Source of the DNA: Treponema sp. UBA792
GTDB taxonomy: Bacteria; Spirochaetota; Spirochaetia; Treponematales; Treponemataceae
Length of the DNA: 33,602 nt
Assembly (NCBI GenBank): GCA_002296965.1
Contig: DBIW01000018.1
Span: 1 to 33,602 of the forward strand
Direction of reading: 5' to 3'
Positions 6,122-30,607 of this stretch are shown here, one piece after another. The position numbers and the translations under genes were made by a program. Each line of letters starts with the position of its first letter. The first letter of the stretch is position 1. The notes under the pieces were generated by a model. It did not search any database and was not told the origin of the DNA. It saw only the letters and a list, made by a program, of their open reading frames with translations.

Positions 6122-8950
6122 ATGAACAGAAAGATTGTTCTTGACTGGAAAAAATATCTTGACAAGGCGGAGGAGACTGTCGCGGAAGGCTGCGTCCTGC
6201 TCCGGAACGAGGCGGAGACGCTTCCTCTTCCTTTTTGTGCGCGTGTCTCGGTTTTCGGCAGAATTCAGCTTCATTATTACAAATCAGGAACCGGATCTGG
6301 CGGCATGGTGAATGTCCATTCCGTCACGGGAATTCTTGACGCTCTGGAACAGTCTGATTCCGTGGTGATAAACCGGAATCTTCTCGAAATTTATAAAAAA
6401 TGGGACTCGGAAAATCCGTTTTTCAGGAGTATGCAGTGGGGCGACGAGCCTTGGTCACAGAAGGAGATGCCGCTTTCGGACGATGTGGTAAAATCGGCCG
6501 CGGATGAGTCGGATTACGCTGTCGTCATAATCGGGCGGACCGCCGGCGAGGACAAGGACTCAAGCAACGAGAAAGGCTCGTATCTCCTGACCGACACGGA
6601 GGAGGATATGCTCGCCAAGGTCACAAAATATTTCTCCAGAGTGGTTGTCCTTCTGAATACGGGCGGAATCATCGACATGAAATTTGTTGACAGGTACAGA
6701 CCTTCCGCCGTCATGTATGTGTGGCAGGGAGGAATGAACGGAGGCTGCGGCGTCGCGGATCTTCTTACAGGAAAGGCGGTTCCGTCCGGCAAGCTGACCG
6801 ATACAATCGCATATAATATAGAAGATTATCCTTCGGACAGGAATTTCGGCGGCACGGAGCGCAATTTCTACTGCGAGGATATTTACGTCGGGTACAGATA
6901 CTTTGAGACATTCGCTCCGGAAAAAGTCATGTTTCCCTTCGGATTCGGACTGAGCTACACGGAATTCGGAATTAGACCGGGACATCTTCCGGAAAAATTT
7001 CCTTATGTTGACGGAAACGGCGGAAATTTCAGGATTGAATTCAGCATTGACGTGATGAACCGGGGAAAATTTCCCGGAAAGGAGGTTGTCCAGATTTATG
7101 CGCAGTGTCCGCAGGGAAAGCTCGGAAAGCCGGTGCGCTCTCTCTGTGCTTTCGCGAAAACCGTTGCGCTGGAGCCGGGGAAAAGCGTCTCCGTTCCGTT
7201 CAGTATCTGCGCCGCTGATTTTGCCTCCTACGATGACAGCGGAGTTTCGGGTCATAAGTCGTGTTTCGTGCTTGAGGCCGGAGAATATGTCTTTTTCGCC
7301 GGAAGTGATGTGCGTTCCGCTGAGAGAATTTTCTCCTTCGTCCTGCCGGAAACATCCGTGGTCGTGGAGCTTGCCGAGGCGCTCGCTCCGAATCTGGAAT
7401 TCAGCCGTCTCCGTCCTGTCATTGAGTCCGGGAAATTTGCCGAGGGAACGGAACCTGTTCCGCTTTGCACGTTCGACATGGACAGAAAGCGCGCCATGAA
7501 TATTCCGGCGGAAATTCCTTTTACGGGCGGCCGCGGAATTCTTCTTCGTGATGTCCGCGAGGGAAGGAACACAATGGATGAATTCATAGCGCAGCTGTCT
7601 GATGAGGATCTTGCGTGCATCGTGCGCGGCGAGGGCATGGGAAGCCTGAAGGTCACGCTCGGAACGGCCGCGGCTTTCGGCGGCGTCTCGGATAATCTGC
7701 GCAAATTCGGAATTCCCTGCGGATGCTGCGATGACGGTCCTTCCGGGATGCGGCTTGACAGCGGAGCAAAGGCGTTCAATATGCCGAACGGAACACTGAT
7801 GGCCTGCACGTTCAATCCTGCGCTGATGACGGAGCTTTTCACTTTTACCGGACAGGAGATGGTCCACAACAAAATAGAATGTCTTCTCGGTCCAGGCATG
7901 AACATCCACCGCCATCCGCTGAACGGACGGAATTTCGAGTATTTTTCGGAGGATCCGCTTGTGACCGGAAAAATTGCGTCCGGGCAGCTTGCCGGTCTTG
8001 AAAAATCCGGCGTTACCGGAACGATAAAGCATTTCTGTGCGAACAATCAGGAGACGAGGCGGCACTTTATCGACAGCGTTGTCTCCGAGCGCGCCCTGCG
8101 CGAGATTTATCTGAAGGGATTCGAGATTGCCGTAAAGGAGGGAAAAGCCACTTCCGTGATGACGACTTACGGCGCGCTTAACGGACGCTGGACCGCCGGA
8201 AGCTACGACCTGAGCACGACAGTTCTGCGCGGTGAATGGGGATTTGGTGGAATCGTTATGACCGACTGGTTCGCCTCGATAAATGAACTGGGTAAAAAGC
8301 AGGACAGAAAGAATTTTGCCGCCATGATCCGTAGCCAGAACGACATATACATGGTCTGCCCGGACGGTTCATACGCATCCACCGGCGACAACACGCTTGA
8401 GTCGCTTGCCGACGGAAGGCTTGCACGCTCGGAGCTTCAGCGCAGCGCGGCCAACATCTGCTCTTTCCTTATGAATTCCAACGCGATGGACAGGCTTATG
8501 GGCTGCGCCGATGTCGTCTCCGTGATAAACATGCCGTCAGACGAGTCATCCGACATAAAATCCGATGATCTTGAGATAATCCGTCTGAAGGACAAGGCTG
8601 TTGTCCGCCTGTCGGACAAGGAATCAAAGGACGGAACTGATTACGCGTTTGCCGCCGAATTTGAACGGAAAGGAATGTATTCTGTCCGTCTGCGCGGTTC
8701 AAGCCGTGCCTCCGAGCTTGCGCAGATTCCGTGCACGCTCTTTGTCGGAGGAATTCCGTCGCTTTCGTTTGTTTTTACCGGAACTGGCGGAAATCCTGTC
8801 TCGATTGAGAGAGAAATGCCTGTTCAGAACGATTATGCGGTTCTCAGGCTGAATGTAGGCGCGGACGGCGCTGAGCTTGAGGCTCTGGAGATTGAATTCC
8901 TGAGGGAATTCACTGAGGACGACAGGAAACAGTTTTTCTGGATGAGCTGA
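6122..8950 (+). CDS. Glycoside hydrolase family 3 (beta-glucosidase type), domain-permuted
   Basis: The 942-residue protein contains all GH3 parts in reversed order. Residues about 15-290 are the alpha/beta sandwich domain that normally comes second: an EGCVLLRNEAETLPL start, and a GRTAGEDKDSSNEKGSY segment where the acid/base glutamate region is expected. Residues about 305-400 look like the fibronectin-III-like domain. Residues about 480-765 are the TIM-barrel domain that normally comes first, with GPGMNIHRHPLNGRNFEYF, KHFCANNQE and the nucleophile motif GGIVMTDW (Asp about residue 715). A beta-rich tail of about 180 residues follows. This inverted order is known from rumen Ruminococcus and Butyrivibrio beta-glucosidases. 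There is no signal peptide, so it is probably cytoplasmic. The upstream SD is weak (GGA at 6111-6113). Substrate unknown beyond a beta-glycoside. Confidence 0.9.
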   Translation: MNRKIVLDWKKYLDKAEETVAEGCVLLRNEAETLPLPFCARVSVFGRIQLHYYKSGTGSGGMVNVHSVTGILDALEQSDSVVINRNLLEIYKKWDSENPFFRSMQWGDEPWSQKEMPLSDDVVKSAADESDYAVVIIGRTAGEDKDSSNEKGSYLLTDTEEDMLAKVTKYFSRVVVLLNTGGIIDMKFVDRYRPSAVMYVWQGGMNGGCGVADLLTGKAVPSGKLTDTIAYNIEDYPSDRNFGGTERNFYCEDIYVGYRYFETFAPEKVMFPFGFGLSYTEFGIRPGHLPEKFPYVDGNGGNFRIEFSIDVMNRGKFPGKEVVQIYAQCPQGKLGKPVRSLCAFAKTVALEPGKSVSVPFSICAADFASYDDSGVSGHKSCFVLEAGEYVFFAGSDVRSAERIFSFVLPETSVVVELAEALAPNLEFSRLRPVIESGKFAEGTEPVPLCTFDMDRKRAMNIPAEIPFTGGRGILLRDVREGRNTMDEFIAQLSDEDLACIVRGEGMGSLKVTLGTAAAFGGVSDNLRKFGIPCGCCDDGPSGMRLDSGAKAFNMPNGTLMACTFNPALMTELFTFTGQEMVHNKIECLLGPGMNIHRHPLNGRNFEYFSEDPLVTGKIASGQLAGLEKSGVTGTIKHFCANNQETRRHFIDSVVSERALREIYLKGFEIAVKEGKATSVMTTYGALNGRWTAGSYDLSTTVLRGEWGFGGIVMTDWFASINELGKKQDRKNFAAMIRSQNDIYMVCPDGSYASTGDNTLESLADGRLARSELQRSAANICSFLMNSNAMDRLMGCADVVSVINMPSDESSDIKSDDLEIIRLKDKAVVRLSDKESKDGTDYAFAAEFERKGMYSVRLRGSSRASELAQIPCTLFVGGIPSLSFVFTGTGGNPVSIEREMPVQNDYAVLRLNVGADGAELEALEIEFLREFTEDDRKQFFWMS

Positions 8951-8983: not shown

Positions 8984-11386
8984 ATGGAAATAAATATTGA
9001 CGGAAAAAAGGCGGAGCGGCGGCGGAATTTTCTTTACCGCGGACCTGGGATGGTCAGCGGCAACAATTCGTCGCGTCTGCTCCTTGACTACAAGGCTGTC
9101 TCTCCGGAGTCCTATTGGAAAATTCTGGAGCTTCTTTTTACGGACCGCGGTCTTGCCCTGAACCATCTGAAAATCGAGATGGGCTCCGATGCGAATTCAA
9201 CATCCGGCACGGAGCCGTGCGTGATGCGTTCCGCTGACGAAGAACCGGATCTGACACGGGGAGCCGGTTTTATTCTTGCCGCGGACGCAAAAAAGCTGAA
9301 TCCGCAGCTTACGCTGGATATGCTGTGGTGGAGCGAGCCGGCATGGGTTTCCGCCTCGGAAGATGTGTTCGCCGCGCGGTGGCTCTGGTACAGGAAAATT
9401 CTTGAGGCGGCATGGCGGAAATTCGGGCTTGAATTTGATTTTGTCAGCGCGAACCGCAACGAGCGCGCGCTGGAGCCGGAATGGATAATCTATCTTTCTG
9501 ACAGGCTGAAATCATGTCCGGACGCGCCATATAATTTTTCCAGGATAAAAGTTGTGGCTGCGGATGAGGACTGCGCCTGGAACATCGCATGGCAGATGAC
9601 GGACAATCCGCGCCTGCGTGACGCTGTGGACATAATCGGAAGTCATTACACGAGCTGGTCGTCCGACATGGCGCGGAATCTTGCGGAAAAATACGGAAAG
9701 GAGCTGTGGTTCAGCGAGGGCAGTCCTGCGATGAAATTTACGGCCGGCGCATTCAGGTTTGAGCCGGAAAGTTCAGCTTTCGCCGGGCGGAACGGAATTC
9801 TTGATATTGCGGCGCGTTTTATGACCGCCTGGTACGGTGGAAAGATGACGATGTATCAGTTTCAGCCTGCGGTCGCGGCGTATTATGACGGTGTCTGTTT
9901 CTGCCGTAAGCAGCTGATTTCCGCGGCCTCACCATGGAGCGGGCATTTTGAGCTGGATCCGTCATTCTTCATGATGCTGCATTTCTCAAAATTCATCCGG
10001 AAAGGCTGGAGCTTTGTTGACGGAGCCTGTTTTGCGGACGGAAAGCCCGGCCCGGACGGACATTCTGTTGATGACACAGAGAGCTGTTTTGTGACGCTTG
10101 CGGATCCGGAGCTTGAGAATTTCTCCACCGTGCTGATAAATCCGTCTCCGTCGCCGCGTCCCGCCGTTTTTGATGTGGCAGGAATCTCCGGTGCCGGCAG
10201 GGGAGTCAATGTGTTCGTGACGTGCGGAAACGGCCCGGAGCGTGACTACAGCGGGAACTACTTCAGAAAGACAGATTCATTTGTTCCGGAGAATACGGCC
10301 GGACGCTGCTCGTTCACCGTGACTCTGCCTCCGTTTTCCGTGGTGACGGTCTCCACGCTGTCGGCGGAGTTTTCCGTCGGTATGGAAATTCCGCATGATT
10401 CTGTCATGTCTCTTCCATATAATGATGATTTTTCTTATGCGGACTTCGGGGCTGATTTTCTAGCCGGACGTGGGAATGCCCCGCTGTTCACGACGGATCA
10501 GGGCGGCGCATTCGAGGTGGAGCATTCCGCGGACGGAAATGTTCTCGCGCAGAAAATAACGGATGATATGCGCCCAAAGGAATGGGGATATACGCCCGAA
10601 CCTGTCACGTGTTTTGGAGACGACCGCTGGTTCAACTGCTCGTTCTCCGCGCAGGTTAAATTCGCGGACTGCGGTGACGGAGCCTATGCCGGAATCGGAA
10701 TAAGATATGTTCTTGCCGCGGACGCGAAAAGCGGATATGCGCTGCTCGTCCATGCTGACGGCCGGTGGGAATTTCTTGCGGACGGACAGACTGTTCTTGA
10801 CGGAAAGGCTGAATTTCCGGCCGCAGGCTCTTCTTCCTGGATTACGCTCGGAATTTCGGCGGAGGATTCCGTGGTAAGGCTTGAGCTTGACGGAACCGTG
10901 CTTGCCGAAAAGGACATGAGCGGACTGAAATTCCGCGGCGGCGGCCGGTGCGCGCTTTATTCGTCTTATCACCGCAATCTGTTCCGCCGCCTTTCCGTAA
11001 AGCCGACCAGCCGGGGAGGCGGATTCTCTGTCATCAGAAAGGACGATACTGATTTCTGCTTCAGCTATGAAGGTCCGTGGCGTCATGACTGCATGAGCTC
11101 ATTCAAGAATTATATGAGGACGGTCTCGTCGGGATCGGAAGGCGCGCGTCTTTTCCTTGATTTTGACGGAACGGGATTCCTGATTTTCGGCGGTTCGGAG
11201 GAGGAGCCGCTCGTGGAGATTTCTGTCGACGGGAAGCTTGTCTGTCCTGAATTCACGGTAAAAAAGACTTCCGGAAGGGAAATCTCCTGTCCGGTCATGA
11301 ATCTTGAGCGCGGACATCACCGTGCCGAAATCCGTGTTCTTTCCGGAGAATTCCGGGTTGACGGCGTGGATATATGCTATAATTGA
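8984..11386 (+). CDS. Glycoside hydrolase family 59-like (galactocerebrosidase/beta-galactosidase family)
   Basis: The 800-residue protein follows the architecture of animal galactocerebrosidase. A TIM barrel spans about residues 18-330 with the acid/base in SANRNER (Glu160) and the nucleophile in LWFSEGSP (Glu245). The IIGSHYTSW and SAASPWSGHF blocks match the IGAHYPG and EPWSGHY blocks of that family. A beta-sandwich follows to about 455, then a lectin-like domain starting near 475 (SLPYNDDFSYADF, later DDRWFNCSFSAQVKF), and an extra C-terminal beta-rich domain from about 665. The family hydrolyses beta-galactosides, classically galactosylceramide. No signal peptide is seen, so the enzyme is probably cytoplasmic and would act on imported or endogenous substrate. 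AAGGA at 8972-8976 sits seven bases before the ATG. It follows GH3 by 33 bases and is followed by the dehydrogenase after three. The exact substrate is not known. Confidence 0.82.
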   Translation: MEINIDGKKAERRRNFLYRGPGMVSGNNSSRLLLDYKAVSPESYWKILELLFTDRGLALNHLKIEMGSDANSTSGTEPCVMRSADEEPDLTRGAGFILAADAKKLNPQLTLDMLWWSEPAWVSASEDVFAARWLWYRKILEAAWRKFGLEFDFVSANRNERALEPEWIIYLSDRLKSCPDAPYNFSRIKVVAADEDCAWNIAWQMTDNPRLRDAVDIIGSHYTSWSSDMARNLAEKYGKELWFSEGSPAMKFTAGAFRFEPESSAFAGRNGILDIAARFMTAWYGGKMTMYQFQPAVAAYYDGVCFCRKQLISAASPWSGHFELDPSFFMMLHFSKFIRKGWSFVDGACFADGKPGPDGHSVDDTESCFVTLADPELENFSTVLINPSPSPRPAVFDVAGISGAGRGVNVFVTCGNGPERDYSGNYFRKTDSFVPENTAGRCSFTVTLPPFSVVTVSTLSAEFSVGMEIPHDSVMSLPYNDDFSYADFGADFLAGRGNAPLFTTDQGGAFEVEHSADGNVLAQKITDDMRPKEWGYTPEPVTCFGDDRWFNCSFSAQVKFADCGDGAYAGIGIRYVLAADAKSGYALLVHADGRWEFLADGQTVLDGKAEFPAAGSSSWITLGISAEDSVVRLELDGTVLAEKDMSGLKFRGGGRCALYSSYHRNLFRRLSVKPTSRGGGFSVIRKDDTDFCFSYEGPWRHDCMSSFKNYMRTVSSGSEGARLFLDFDGTGFLIFGGSEEEPLVEISVDGKLVCPEFTVKKTSGREISCPVMNLERGHHRAEIRVLSGEFRVDGVDICYN

Positions 11387-27707: not shown

Positions 27708-27736
27708 TTAACATAATCCGATTTTTATACGATAAT
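27708..27736 (+). promoter_or_regulatory. Promoter of the 3+3 TM membrane-protein pair
   Basis: TTAACA (27708-27713), a 17-base spacer and GATAAT (27731-27736) match consensus at five of six each. Apart from this and the ybaB -10 box, the intergenic stretch 27585-27800 shows no gene. Confidence 0.6.
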
Positions 27737-27800: not shown

Positions 27801-28766
27801 ATGAAAAAAGCGCTCAGACTTGTTTTTGTTTATTTTGCCTTTCTTGTTGCTGGAATTGTTCTGTGGACGTTCCTTCATTCCCTGTTCATGGGAATTCTTG
27901 CCATGACTGCCGGAGAACGGGTTCCTGTTCTCAGCATCAGACGGATTCCGGACTCGTTCATGTTCTGTGCCCCGTCGGTCATATTCCTGTCGGGGACATT
28001 CATGTCCTATTACAAGATACGCCGTCCCGGTGGAATTCCTCAGTTTCTGGTTTTTGCCGTGCTGTCGCTTGTGTCCTGGTGTTTTATCCTGCCTTCATTT
28101 GTTCTGCTCGGAAAATCCTGGTATGCGACGCATGAGATTTACGGGAATTCCGCGTCTGAGCTGAGCGCCGGATATTTCAGGCGCTACGGTGATGATGTGT
28201 ATTTTTTCACAAGAGAAGTTGAGGCGGCAGGTGAGGACGGAATTCCTTCTGTCGTGATAGACACGTCATCGGAGGGCGGGGCGGTTTTCCGCAATGTTCG
28301 CGCGGGTGAGAAGGCATTCATATATAATTCCGCGCGTCCTTACAGCGATGTCCTTGTAAAACAGGCTTTCAGCAGCGGCGTCACGTTCAGAAATATGCTG
28401 GATTTCAGGGCACTGATACGGCGGACACAGCGGGCTATGAATGCCGGATTTTCGTTCTGGCTTGGATTTCTCTCCCTGGGATTTGTCCTGAGCTCGGTGT
28501 ATGGAATCGCGGGCGTATTCAGGTGGCGCATAATGAATGTTACCGCTGTTCTTTTCGCCACGGCCGCAATCCTTGTTGTGAATTCAGCGTATTTTCTTCC
28601 GTCGTCTGTTCCTGTTTGGCGGAATTCAATTGCGACCGGCAGGCTTTTTGTGTTCCTGTCCGGATTTGTCGAAGCTCCGTTTCTGACCGTTGTCAATGTC
28701 GTTTTCGGAATTCTGTTCTCCGTTATTGGAGCCGCGGTGTTTTTCACCAGAAAAAATGAGTTTTAG
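27801..28766 (+). CDS. Six-TM membrane protein with central loop domain, LptF/LptG-like topology
   Basis: I do not recognise this 321-residue protein by sequence. Three membrane helices (about 7-34, 52-70, 80-104) are followed by a beta-rich hydrophilic domain (about 105-212, with DDVYFFTREVEAA and IPSVVIDTSSEGGAVF). Three more helices follow (about 215-240, 245-266, 281-315). A 3+3 arrangement around a central periplasmic beta domain, followed by RALIRRTQRAMNAG before TM4, resembles LptF/LptG permeases. AAGGA at 27790-27794 precedes the ATG by six bases. It is followed eight bases later by a second 3+3 protein, as expected of a heterodimer. Similarity to Lpt permeases is inferred from topology. 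Confidence 0.7.
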   Translation: MKKALRLVFVYFAFLVAGIVLWTFLHSLFMGILAMTAGERVPVLSIRRIPDSFMFCAPSVIFLSGTFMSYYKIRRPGGIPQFLVFAVLSLVSWCFILPSFVLLGKSWYATHEIYGNSASELSAGYFRRYGDDVYFFTREVEAAGEDGIPSVVIDTSSEGGAVFRNVRAGEKAFIYNSARPYSDVLVKQAFSSGVTFRNMLDFRALIRRTQRAMNAGFSFWLGFLSLGFVLSSVYGIAGVFRWRIMNVTAVLFATAAILVVNSAYFLPSSVPVWRNSIATGRLFVFLSGFVEAPFLTVVNVVFGILFSVIGAAVFFTRKNEF

Positions 28767-28774
28767 GTGATGTG

Positions 28775-30607
28775 ATGAAAAAGATTCTTGTGGTGCTTGC
28801 GTCTCTGCTTGTGGCCGGATTTGTCCTGTGTTCCGGAATCGCTTTTTTCAGGGCGGTTCCGGCGGAAATTCCGCAGTCCATGGTATTCCAGTACAAAATT
28901 CTTTCGGGGCTGTCGGTATTTTTGGATATTCTTCCTGTTCTTGTCCTTTCCGGATTTGCCGCCGGATGCTCCGTGTTTTTCGGACGGAATTCAGAGGGAA
29001 GCCTGAGCCGTTTTTCCGCCGCGATGTTCCGCAGATACAAAACCGTGATGATTCTTTCAATAATATGCGTTTTTCTGCTGACCGTCGTCGCGGAGATTGC
29101 CTCTCCTGCCGTAAACGGAAAGCGCGGCTCAATCAGGAACAGGCGCGGGCTTATAGATGAATATCTGCGCGTCGGAAACAGCCTTTACGAAAACGGATTC
29201 TATGCGCGCGCCGGAAACTATGCCAGAGCCGTGCTTGCTCTTGATCCTGATTCCTCCGAGGCCGAGAATCTGGAATTTCTTGCGGAGGAAAAACAGAATT
29301 CCTCCGTTTCTTCAGGAGGCGCCGCGTCCGTAATCGAAAAAAAATCCGCCGGCCATGACACGTCCGTGGACAGGGCTGATGTTGACGGCGGAAGAATTCT
29401 TGAGGCTTACGGATGCTTTGTAAAGGCTCAGGAGGCTTTTGACAGGGGCAGCTGGTTCAACGCGCATTATTTTGCCGAGAACGGAATCATGCTGTCATCT
29501 TCCAAAGATCCCAATCTCGGACGGCTCAAGGAAATTTCGGCGGAGGCCTGGAACAACCTTACGGAAAGGCAGAATACGGAAAAATCTGACAGCCAGAAAA
29601 TCTTCGCGCGGAAATATGAGGGGTATAAGGCGCTTATCGGTCATGATGATTTGAAGGCATATTATATCTTCAAGGAATTGTCCCGGATTTCGGATGAGAT
29701 GAGCCGGGATCCTGATGTGGTTTTCTATCTGGATATAGCTTCCGCCAGGATAAATGACAGGTATTTTTTTACGGATGAGACTCTGGGGCTTGACAGTCTT
29801 GAATCAGCATCGGACGTTTATTTTGCCTGCACCTACCCGGACGGCTCCAGGGATATTTTCTATATAAAAGGCGTTACATCCGTAGCCGCTACAGGAAATT
29901 CCATACAGTATCTCCGGGGGCTTGCGGTGGAATCGGTCGACTCGAATGGAAATTTCGTCAGGGAGATGAAAGTGCCTTACGCGAAAGTGCTGCCGGTCTC
30001 CGTTGACTATATTGATGCCGGAACAAGAAAATCCTACGGAATAGAAGACGGAACGGACGAGGTTCCTTTTGTCATGCTCAAGTCAATCGGCAGGGACAGC
30101 GATACCGGTCATCTGCCTGAATATAAGTATGCGGACGGTTCCGTCGGAGGCGGAGATGAATATATGCTTCTTCCGCTTCCGTTTGAGGATCTTGTCATGA
30201 TAGAAAAATCATCCGTGAATTTTGGAGAGATGCCGTTGCCGTCACTGTTCGGTTTTATCCGTTCGGCTGAAAAATATGGCTATCAACAGCAGCTCTGTGT
30301 CCAGATATTCATGAACAGGATTTTGTATCCGCTTTTCATGCTCTGGATTCTGGTTTTTGCCGCGGCATTCGCCTGGAACAGCAGAATCGGTCTGGAGCAG
30401 GTGTTCCGTTTCTCCTGGATATTCCTTTTTCCGTTCTTTTTCGGACTTGTGTTCGTGTTCTTTTCCGCAATGCAGTTCGTGTTCAGAATGATGAATTATA
30501 TAATCTCATGCGATGTGGTCTATCCGTTTTCGCTTGCCGCCGGACTCGCCGTGAATGTCGCGCTTTTTGCCGTCAGTTCCGTTATGTTCCTGTCAAGAAA
30601 AGTGTAG
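28775..30607 (+). CDS. Large 3+3 TM protein with TPR-like insertion, LptG-like
   Basis: This protein has 610 residues from the ATG at 28775; a GTG at 28772 is the alternative, and AGGTGA at 28765-28770 supports either. Three N-terminal helices (about 4-28, 42-70, 86-112) include FLDILPVLVLSGF and FGRNSEGSLSRFSAAMFRRY. These recall the LP and coupling-helix region of LptF/LptG. A 400-residue hydrophilic middle follows. Its first part has TPR-like repeats (YENGFYARAGNYARAVLALD about 142-161, AQEAFDRGSWFNAHYFAENG about 217-236). Its second part is beta-rich. It ends with LPSLFGFIRSAEKYGYQQQL just before TM4 (about 513-533), TM5 and TM6. That last block closely echoes the segment preceding TM4 in LptF/LptG. 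The likely role is one half of a two-subunit envelope permease (inference). Confidence 0.68.
   Translation: MKKILVVLASLLVAGFVLCSGIAFFRAVPAEIPQSMVFQYKILSGLSVFLDILPVLVLSGFAAGCSVFFGRNSEGSLSRFSAAMFRRYKTVMILSIICVFLLTVVAEIASPAVNGKRGSIRNRRGLIDEYLRVGNSLYENGFYARAGNYARAVLALDPDSSEAENLEFLAEEKQNSSVSSGGAASVIEKKSAGHDTSVDRADVDGGRILEAYGCFVKAQEAFDRGSWFNAHYFAENGIMLSSSKDPNLGRLKEISAEAWNNLTERQNTEKSDSQKIFARKYEGYKALIGHDDLKAYYIFKELSRISDEMSRDPDVVFYLDIASARINDRYFFTDETLGLDSLESASDVYFACTYPDGSRDIFYIKGVTSVAATGNSIQYLRGLAVESVDSNGNFVREMKVPYAKVLPVSVDYIDAGTRKSYGIEDGTDEVPFVMLKSIGRDSDTGHLPEYKYADGSVGGGDEYMLLPLPFEDLVMIEKSSVNFGEMPLPSLFGFIRSAEKYGYQQQLCVQIFMNRILYPLFMLWILVFAAAFAWNSRIGLEQVFRFSWIFLFPFFFGLVFVFFSAMQFVFRMMNYIISCDVVYPFSLAAGLAVNVALFAVSSVMFLSRKV

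Follow-up and report, generated by a model that had tools for sequence, protein, structure and literature searches.

LptF and LptG are the two membrane proteins that normally extract lipopolysaccharide from the inner membrane, and the complex LptB2FG is both an unusual ATP-binding cassette (ABC) transporter and a drug target. We describe here two adjacent genes, ORF1 and ORF2 (for open reading frame), whose products resemble this pair. They are located in a stretch of 33,602 nucleotides from Treponema sp. UBA792 (contig DBIW01000018.1), hereafter called the window. In the accessible sections of two papers (PMC5082905, PMC5548808), the coupling helices of LptB2FG, situated between transmembrane helices (TM) 2 and 3, occupy the groove of LptB, and the glutamates E84 of LptF and E88 of LptG from E. 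coli are described as strictly conserved, distant homologues included; when both are changed to alanine, the ATPase activity of LptB2FG is about 0.15% of wild-type. In spirochaetes the canonical Lpt system comprises BB0464-0466, BB0807/0808 and BB0838 (TP0784-0786, TP0883/0884 and TP0515), and the accessible sections of two other papers (PMC10353723, PMC8407342) propose that it transports glycolipid. The pair of the window shares the phylum with this system, but its genes are separate.

Our preferred interpretation, held with a confidence just short of even, is that the two proteins constitute an LptFG-derived heterodimer which stands beside the canonical permease, has lost one coupling arm and carries a periplasmic platform of tetratricopeptide repeats (TPR). 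If this is true, the LptB2FG fold would be usable outside its normal motor cycle, with one arm apparently deleted and a docking domain added, and the pair would give a concrete entry to outer-membrane building in spirochaetes without lipopolysaccharide. The features of the two genes are as follows (3+3 TM, three helices on each side of a periplasmic part).

27801-28766, plus strand: ORF1, LptF-like 3+3 TM protein of 321 amino acids, stop codon TAG.
28023-28034, plus strand: TM2-TM3 turn of ORF1 (residues 75-78) at the position of the LptF coupling helix, from DSSP of the model.
28134-28400, plus strand: periplasmic part of ORF1 (residues 112-200), a reduced beta domain with four strands in the model (126-166).
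28775-30607, plus strand: ORF2, LptG-like 3+3 TM protein with a TPR insert, 610 amino acids, from the ATG at 28775 to the end of the stop codon at 30607.
28988-29017, plus strand: TM2-TM3 loop of ORF2 (residues 72-81), a 10-residue coil in the model, ending with R79-F80-S81.
29135-29782, plus strand: TPR domain of ORF2 (residues 121-336), from the family profile, the model, structural matches and conservation.
29807-30169, plus strand: beta (jellyroll-like) domain of ORF2 (residues 345-465), from the strands of the model, and lying in the part of ORF2 that aligns structurally with LptG.
30236-30295, plus strand: block LPSLFGFIRSAEKYGYQQQL of ORF2 (residues 488-507) before TM4, matching the pre-TM4 segment of LptG weakly by profile (9.1%).
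30287-30592, plus strand: TM4-TM6 of ORF2 (residues 505-606), from the model; orthologues match PF03739 over this half.

The original prediction, made from the sequence of the window, had described two genes 8 bases apart, each encoding three helices, a hydrophilic middle and three helices, and both the coordinates and the AlphaFold2 models agree with this description. In ORF1, the helices 2-36, 46-74 and 79-111 precede the beta domain and the helices 202-215, 217-236, 243-263 and 293-320 follow it. In ORF2, the N-terminal helices are 2-25, 34-71 and 82-139, the last of which (TM3) continues into TPR helices up to about residue 336, and the C-terminal helices are 505-535, 547-580 and 585-606. 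In the models, the N- and C-terminal halves come together as a single six-helix unit. Both proteins show the 3+3 TM topology, in which a beta domain in the periplasm separates TM3 from TM4, this domain being reduced in ORF1. Comparison of the single models with the PDB indicated an LptF/LptG-like fold for both, as anticipated: the model of ORF2 aligns with 332 of the 354 residues of LptG, a near full-length match, while the Foldseek TM-scores of both models are low. Two sequence marks that had been compared with LptF/LptG were also recovered, namely the LP motif in TM2 of ORF2 (proline P54, 4.0 bits) and the block LPSLFGFIRSAEKYGYQQQL, in which G502 is invariant in the 107 rows of the alignment.

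At the sequence level, neither window protein matches PF03739 at E <= 10 nor has any Pfam match above cut-off, and the match of ORF2 to the NCBIfam LptG family TIGR04408 (E 0.00098, residues 476-570) reaches 17.8 bits against a cut-off of 240. Set singly against small alignments of LptF and of LptG, the profiles of the two proteins yielded weak values (0.5%, 9.1%, 4.4%, 2.3%, 0.8% and 42.2%), and the ORF1 profile found nothing convincing among PDB sequences (best E 0.5). The lack of a PF03739 match and the weak single-profile values, with the low TM-scores, would suit two unrelated six-helix proteins that had adopted the 3+3 layout by chance, an explanation that we consider very improbable in view of the near full-length fold match of ORF2, of the orthologues above the Pfam cut-off and of the reversed-profile controls. 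The cut-off of PF03739 is passed by ORF2 orthologues in five verified genomes, and one of 16 orthologues outside the order matches this family; none of the 78 rows of ORF1 has an LptF/G match in Pfam. With a pooled LptF/G profile, the profile comparison that had been proposed as a check gave 4.8 to 84.2% in the forward direction and 0.1 to 2.4% for reversed controls (seven comparisons with shared rows). The ORF1 and ORF2 profiles also match each other with the alignments A2/A1 (74.0%, reversed 2.9%) and A7/A8 (60.4%, reversed 4.6%); another A2/A1 comparison gave 87.5%, with an alignment that partly enters the TPR and is not meaningful there, and the paralogy was not seen with A9/A10 (1.4%, reversed 0.2%). 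We conclude that there is good support for an LptF/LptG-type fold and family relation in the case of ORF2, and reasonable support in that of ORF1.

Since ORF1 does not pass the test for a coupling helix and both window proteins are below the Pfam cut-off, the pair is named LptF/LptG-like rather than LptF and LptG. ORF1 differs from LptF (TIGR04407/PF03739) in that its model shows no coupling helix, its beta domain is reduced or nearly absent and it does not match PF03739. Compared with LptG (TIGR04408/PF03739), ORF2 adds a TPR domain of about 215 residues between TM3 and the beta domain, shows a coil in the model where LptG has its coupling helix, and occurs alongside a canonical LptG. Where relatives have a name in the databases, it is usually "hypothetical protein" or "tetratricopeptide repeat protein"; a few orthologues have already been placed by automatic annotation, since P0146 and P0177 are annotated "LptF/LptG family permease" and P0155 has an LptF name. 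Weak matches to PF03739 (profile positions about 49-160), possibly chance matches of multi-TM proteins, were seen away from the pair in ORFs of about 447-463 amino acids (G126:C120, G157:C26, G112:C26, G015:C1:740780, G033:C1:1765344 and G115:C1:1029266).

The same genome contains a canonical LptF/LptG pair (C22:22369-24512, E 4.6e-72 and 6.4e-68). The search for an unlinked LptB-like ATPase, suggested beforehand, found one LptB over cut-off, unlinked to ORF1-ORF2 (C4:31518-32231), and at 264 bases from it a gene matching the LptD_N domain (LptA-type, C4:32496-32789). ORF1-ORF2 is thus an extra system beside the canonical Lpt permease. Canonical PF03739 genes were present in all genomes checked (21/21 and 14/14); LptB exceeds the cut-off exactly once in 20 of 21 genomes, G195 having none; the family genome G020, a single contig of 1.1 Mb, has canonical LptFG and LptB, and ORF2 was not detected in it. 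The idea that the pair replaces LptF/LptG in this treponeme is not supported. That it is the ordinary Lpt permease, merely diverged, agrees with the fold and the pair arrangement but is the least credible of the explanations considered, given the canonical genes on C22 and C4; the C22 pair refutes it unless it is a contaminant (contamination estimate of the genome, 0.21%). The glycolipid export that had been suggested for the pair is not supported either, as the published proposals, in the sections accessible, give that cargo to the canonical spirochaetal system.

In the region that contacts LptB, a glutamate is present in all canonical rows from this genome and its relatives (LptG 6/6, LptF 17/17). 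A coupling helix with a conserved glutamate is absent from ORF1, both in the model, where TM2 and TM3 are linked by a 4-residue turn, and in the family, where only 3 of 78 rows have any acid within residues 66-84. In ORF2, F80 and S81 of the loop are each conserved in 101 of 106 rows and R79 in 75; the column of E74 has an acid in 37 of its 107 rows and a gap in 55, and a glutamate occurs somewhere within residues 69-79 in 86 of 107 rows, as against 15 of 107 for the TM4-TM5 loop. From the model and the alignment, the arm of ORF1 looks lost, and ORF2 may keep an altered one. A one-armed mechanism is favoured because the ORF1 arm for LptB is gone while the acidic TM2-TM3 loop of ORF2 is kept with an altered sequence; the frequency of glutamate in this loop also leads us to prefer a one-armed, or less likely armless, complex to a wholly uncoupled one, which is a bolder form of the same interpretation. 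That the pair is a normally powered transporter, as implied by the original prediction, is not supported, ORF1 lacking the coupling helix in the model; ORF2 may keep its arm.

The main rival to the one-armed interpretation is a second, fully working ABC exporter that draws on the same single LptB as the canonical LptFG, with the TPR as an acceptor-docking module and another amphiphile (glycolipid, lipooligosaccharide or lipoprotein) as cargo. It is possible but rather doubtful. The LptG-like fold of ORF2, beta domain included, agrees with it, one LptB gene could serve both pairs, and the glutamate of the ORF2 loop (E74 in the window protein) counts for it and weighs against our own preference; the missing coupling helix of ORF1, where the acid is almost absent, counts against it. 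No ABC ATPase was found among the identified recurring neighbours of the pair (layout of 51 of 53 chosen loci, within five genes; several clusters, for example c7 with 12 loci, have no identity), which argues against this exporter and also against a different ABC ATPase, encoded elsewhere, that would power the pair through other loops. We regard the latter as unlikely, because the modelled cytoplasmic loops of ORF1 measure 4 residues and about 6. In 5 of the 51 loci, a loose cluster with one member that looks ABC-ATPase-like by eye is present within five genes.

The middle part of ORF2 comprises about 375 residues, somewhat fewer than the 400 first estimated, and its TPR-like repeats are borne out by the family profile and the model. 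In the window protein alone the signal is weak (TPR_2, E 0.0044, below the Pfam cut-off). With the family profile, consensus TPR chains and TPR-like designed proteins lead the PDB sequences (consensus TPR, E down to 1.8e-47, among the best 60 of 159 matches), TPR folds are among the structural matches to residues 121-330 approximately, and some orthologues carry TPR Pfam matches. ORF2 is clearly a TPR-containing protein, its tandem repeats being recognized through the family profile, the fold match and the Pfam matches of orthologues. The C-terminal part of the TPR (206-340) is the most conserved region, with a mean of 2.24 bits and 29 of 131 columns above 3 bits; elsewhere the means are lower: TM1-3 1.83, the beta domain 1.92, TM4-6 1.97 and the N-terminal repeats (121-180) 1.67. 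In the smaller alignment A1 this lead is slight (2.28 versus 2.24 for the pre-TM4 block). The invariant residues of ORF2 are W259, K280, D312, F331, F332, E335 and G502 (107 rows), six of the seven belonging to the C-terminal TPR part and G502 to the block LPSLFGFIRSAEKYGYQQQL.

In the one-armed interpretation, ORF1 and ORF2 would assemble in the inner membrane as an LptF/LptG-type heterodimer, which we infer from the fold and the pairing. ORF2 would be the LptG-like half, into which a TPR domain has been inserted after TM3 and ahead of the periplasmic beta domain, and ORF1 a reduced LptF-like half whose beta domain is small or missing and whose coupling helix is gone. The complex would be asymmetric, with one arm or, less likely, no working arm, and would not run the normal two-armed power stroke of LptB. 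While the membrane fold of LptFG and a beta domain are retained, the TPR platform would dock a periplasmic partner, for instance in order to control or supply the canonical Lpt bridge, or for another step of envelope assembly.

Among 145 genomes of the family, 139 have ORF2 and 99 have ORF1 (searched with a single sequence); all 99 genomes with ORF1 hold ORF2, and the six without ORF2 are also without ORF1. Judging from this conservation of sequence, both frames code for conserved proteins. The pairing foreseen by the original prediction was found in most loci of the spirochaete survey, so that none of the three observations named beforehand as refuting that prediction was made. ORF1 lies immediately upstream of ORF2 in 56 of 57 named loci, the contig of the exception starting 26 bases before ORF2, and in 38 of 40 further loci (exceptions L047 and L183) the ORF directly upstream has at least five hydrophobic segments; in seven of these 40, ORF1 is shorter (228-264 amino acids) and leaves scant space between TM3 and TM4. 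A search of 116 genomes of the order with the family profile reported ORF2 in 96, at least three of which (G192, G237, G248) show TPR-repeat matches only, and gave no match in the other 20, 18 of them from one family. In the phylum, 46 of 149 genomes have ORF2 at E <= 1e-8, some matches being partial; the 103 without a match at this threshold may be explained by loss or divergence. Outside the order, 16 loci were sampled from 32 genomes with an ORF2 match, and 13 of them keep an ORF1-like neighbour of 313-387 amino acids. The profiles from outside the order match those of the Treponema family with E 6e-56 over 552 columns for ORF2 and 97.3% over 86 columns for ORF1. The qualification "spirochaete-specific" fits the named matches, although other phyla were not searched systematically. 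That the pair represents a widespread spirochaetal pseudo-ABC permease derived from LptF/LptG, with one arm or none, whose conserved periplasmic TPR platform works beside the canonical Lpt bridge, is a more tentative proposal. No earlier description of the pair was found among open-licence papers.

Three of these 13 loci belong to genomes of Borrelia-like size and GC, which have genes of 313 and 600-601 amino acids arranged as ORF1-ORF2, with strong divergence from the window pair (in the profile alignment, the L207 protein and P0002 are 13% identical). We presume that their counterparts in B. burgdorferi are BB0354/BB0353, from the gene order beside a gene judged by eye to be carD (LtpA/BB0355). 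BB_0353 is listed as hypothetical in the accessible section of PMC6711536. In the loci L210, L211 and L220, which we took for Brachyspira-like (GC 0.25-0.27), ORF1 is not found beside ORF2, and a protein of 144-148 amino acids with an N-terminus judged lipoprotein-like by eye is encoded directly upstream. In L051 (G018:C1:1358421-1360165), ORF2 is broken into fragments of 328 and 234 amino acids, with an in-frame TAG reported.

Concerning the neighbourhood, the genes found within five of the pair encode STAS-domain proteins (36 of 51 loci), MurA (25), CesT/YbjN-like proteins (8) and PspA (7), and a TM-DnaJ protein gene is immediately downstream in 10 loci. These identities come from ten representatives scanned with Pfam, L167 and L186 being among the loci with the recurring set. 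The window locus does not keep the STAS, MurA, DnaJ and PspA neighbours, so no functional conclusion is drawn from them. Its own neighbours are RecR/YbaB and Apt/AsnA, what we take to be Apt being a phosphoribosyltransferase in Pfam. A GTG in frame with ORF2 occurs at 28772. The promoter that had been assigned to the pair corresponds to the following candidate.

27708-27736, plus strand: sigma70-like box TTAACA-17-GATAAT, from a consensus scan (10 of 12 matches), which is not evidence of function.

The region contains 7 such promoter-like sites versus 3.1 +/- 1.9 in shuffled sequences, and an own promoter upstream of ORF1 is plausible at most. Elsewhere in the window, the gene at 6122-8950 encodes a glycosyl hydrolase family 3 (GH3) protein with a reversed domain order, the C-terminal domain (25-279) preceding the N-terminal catalytic domain (486-780), and immediately 3' of it the gene at 8984-11386 encodes an 800-amino-acid protein that contains a domain of glycosyl hydrolase family 59 (E 2.8e-90).
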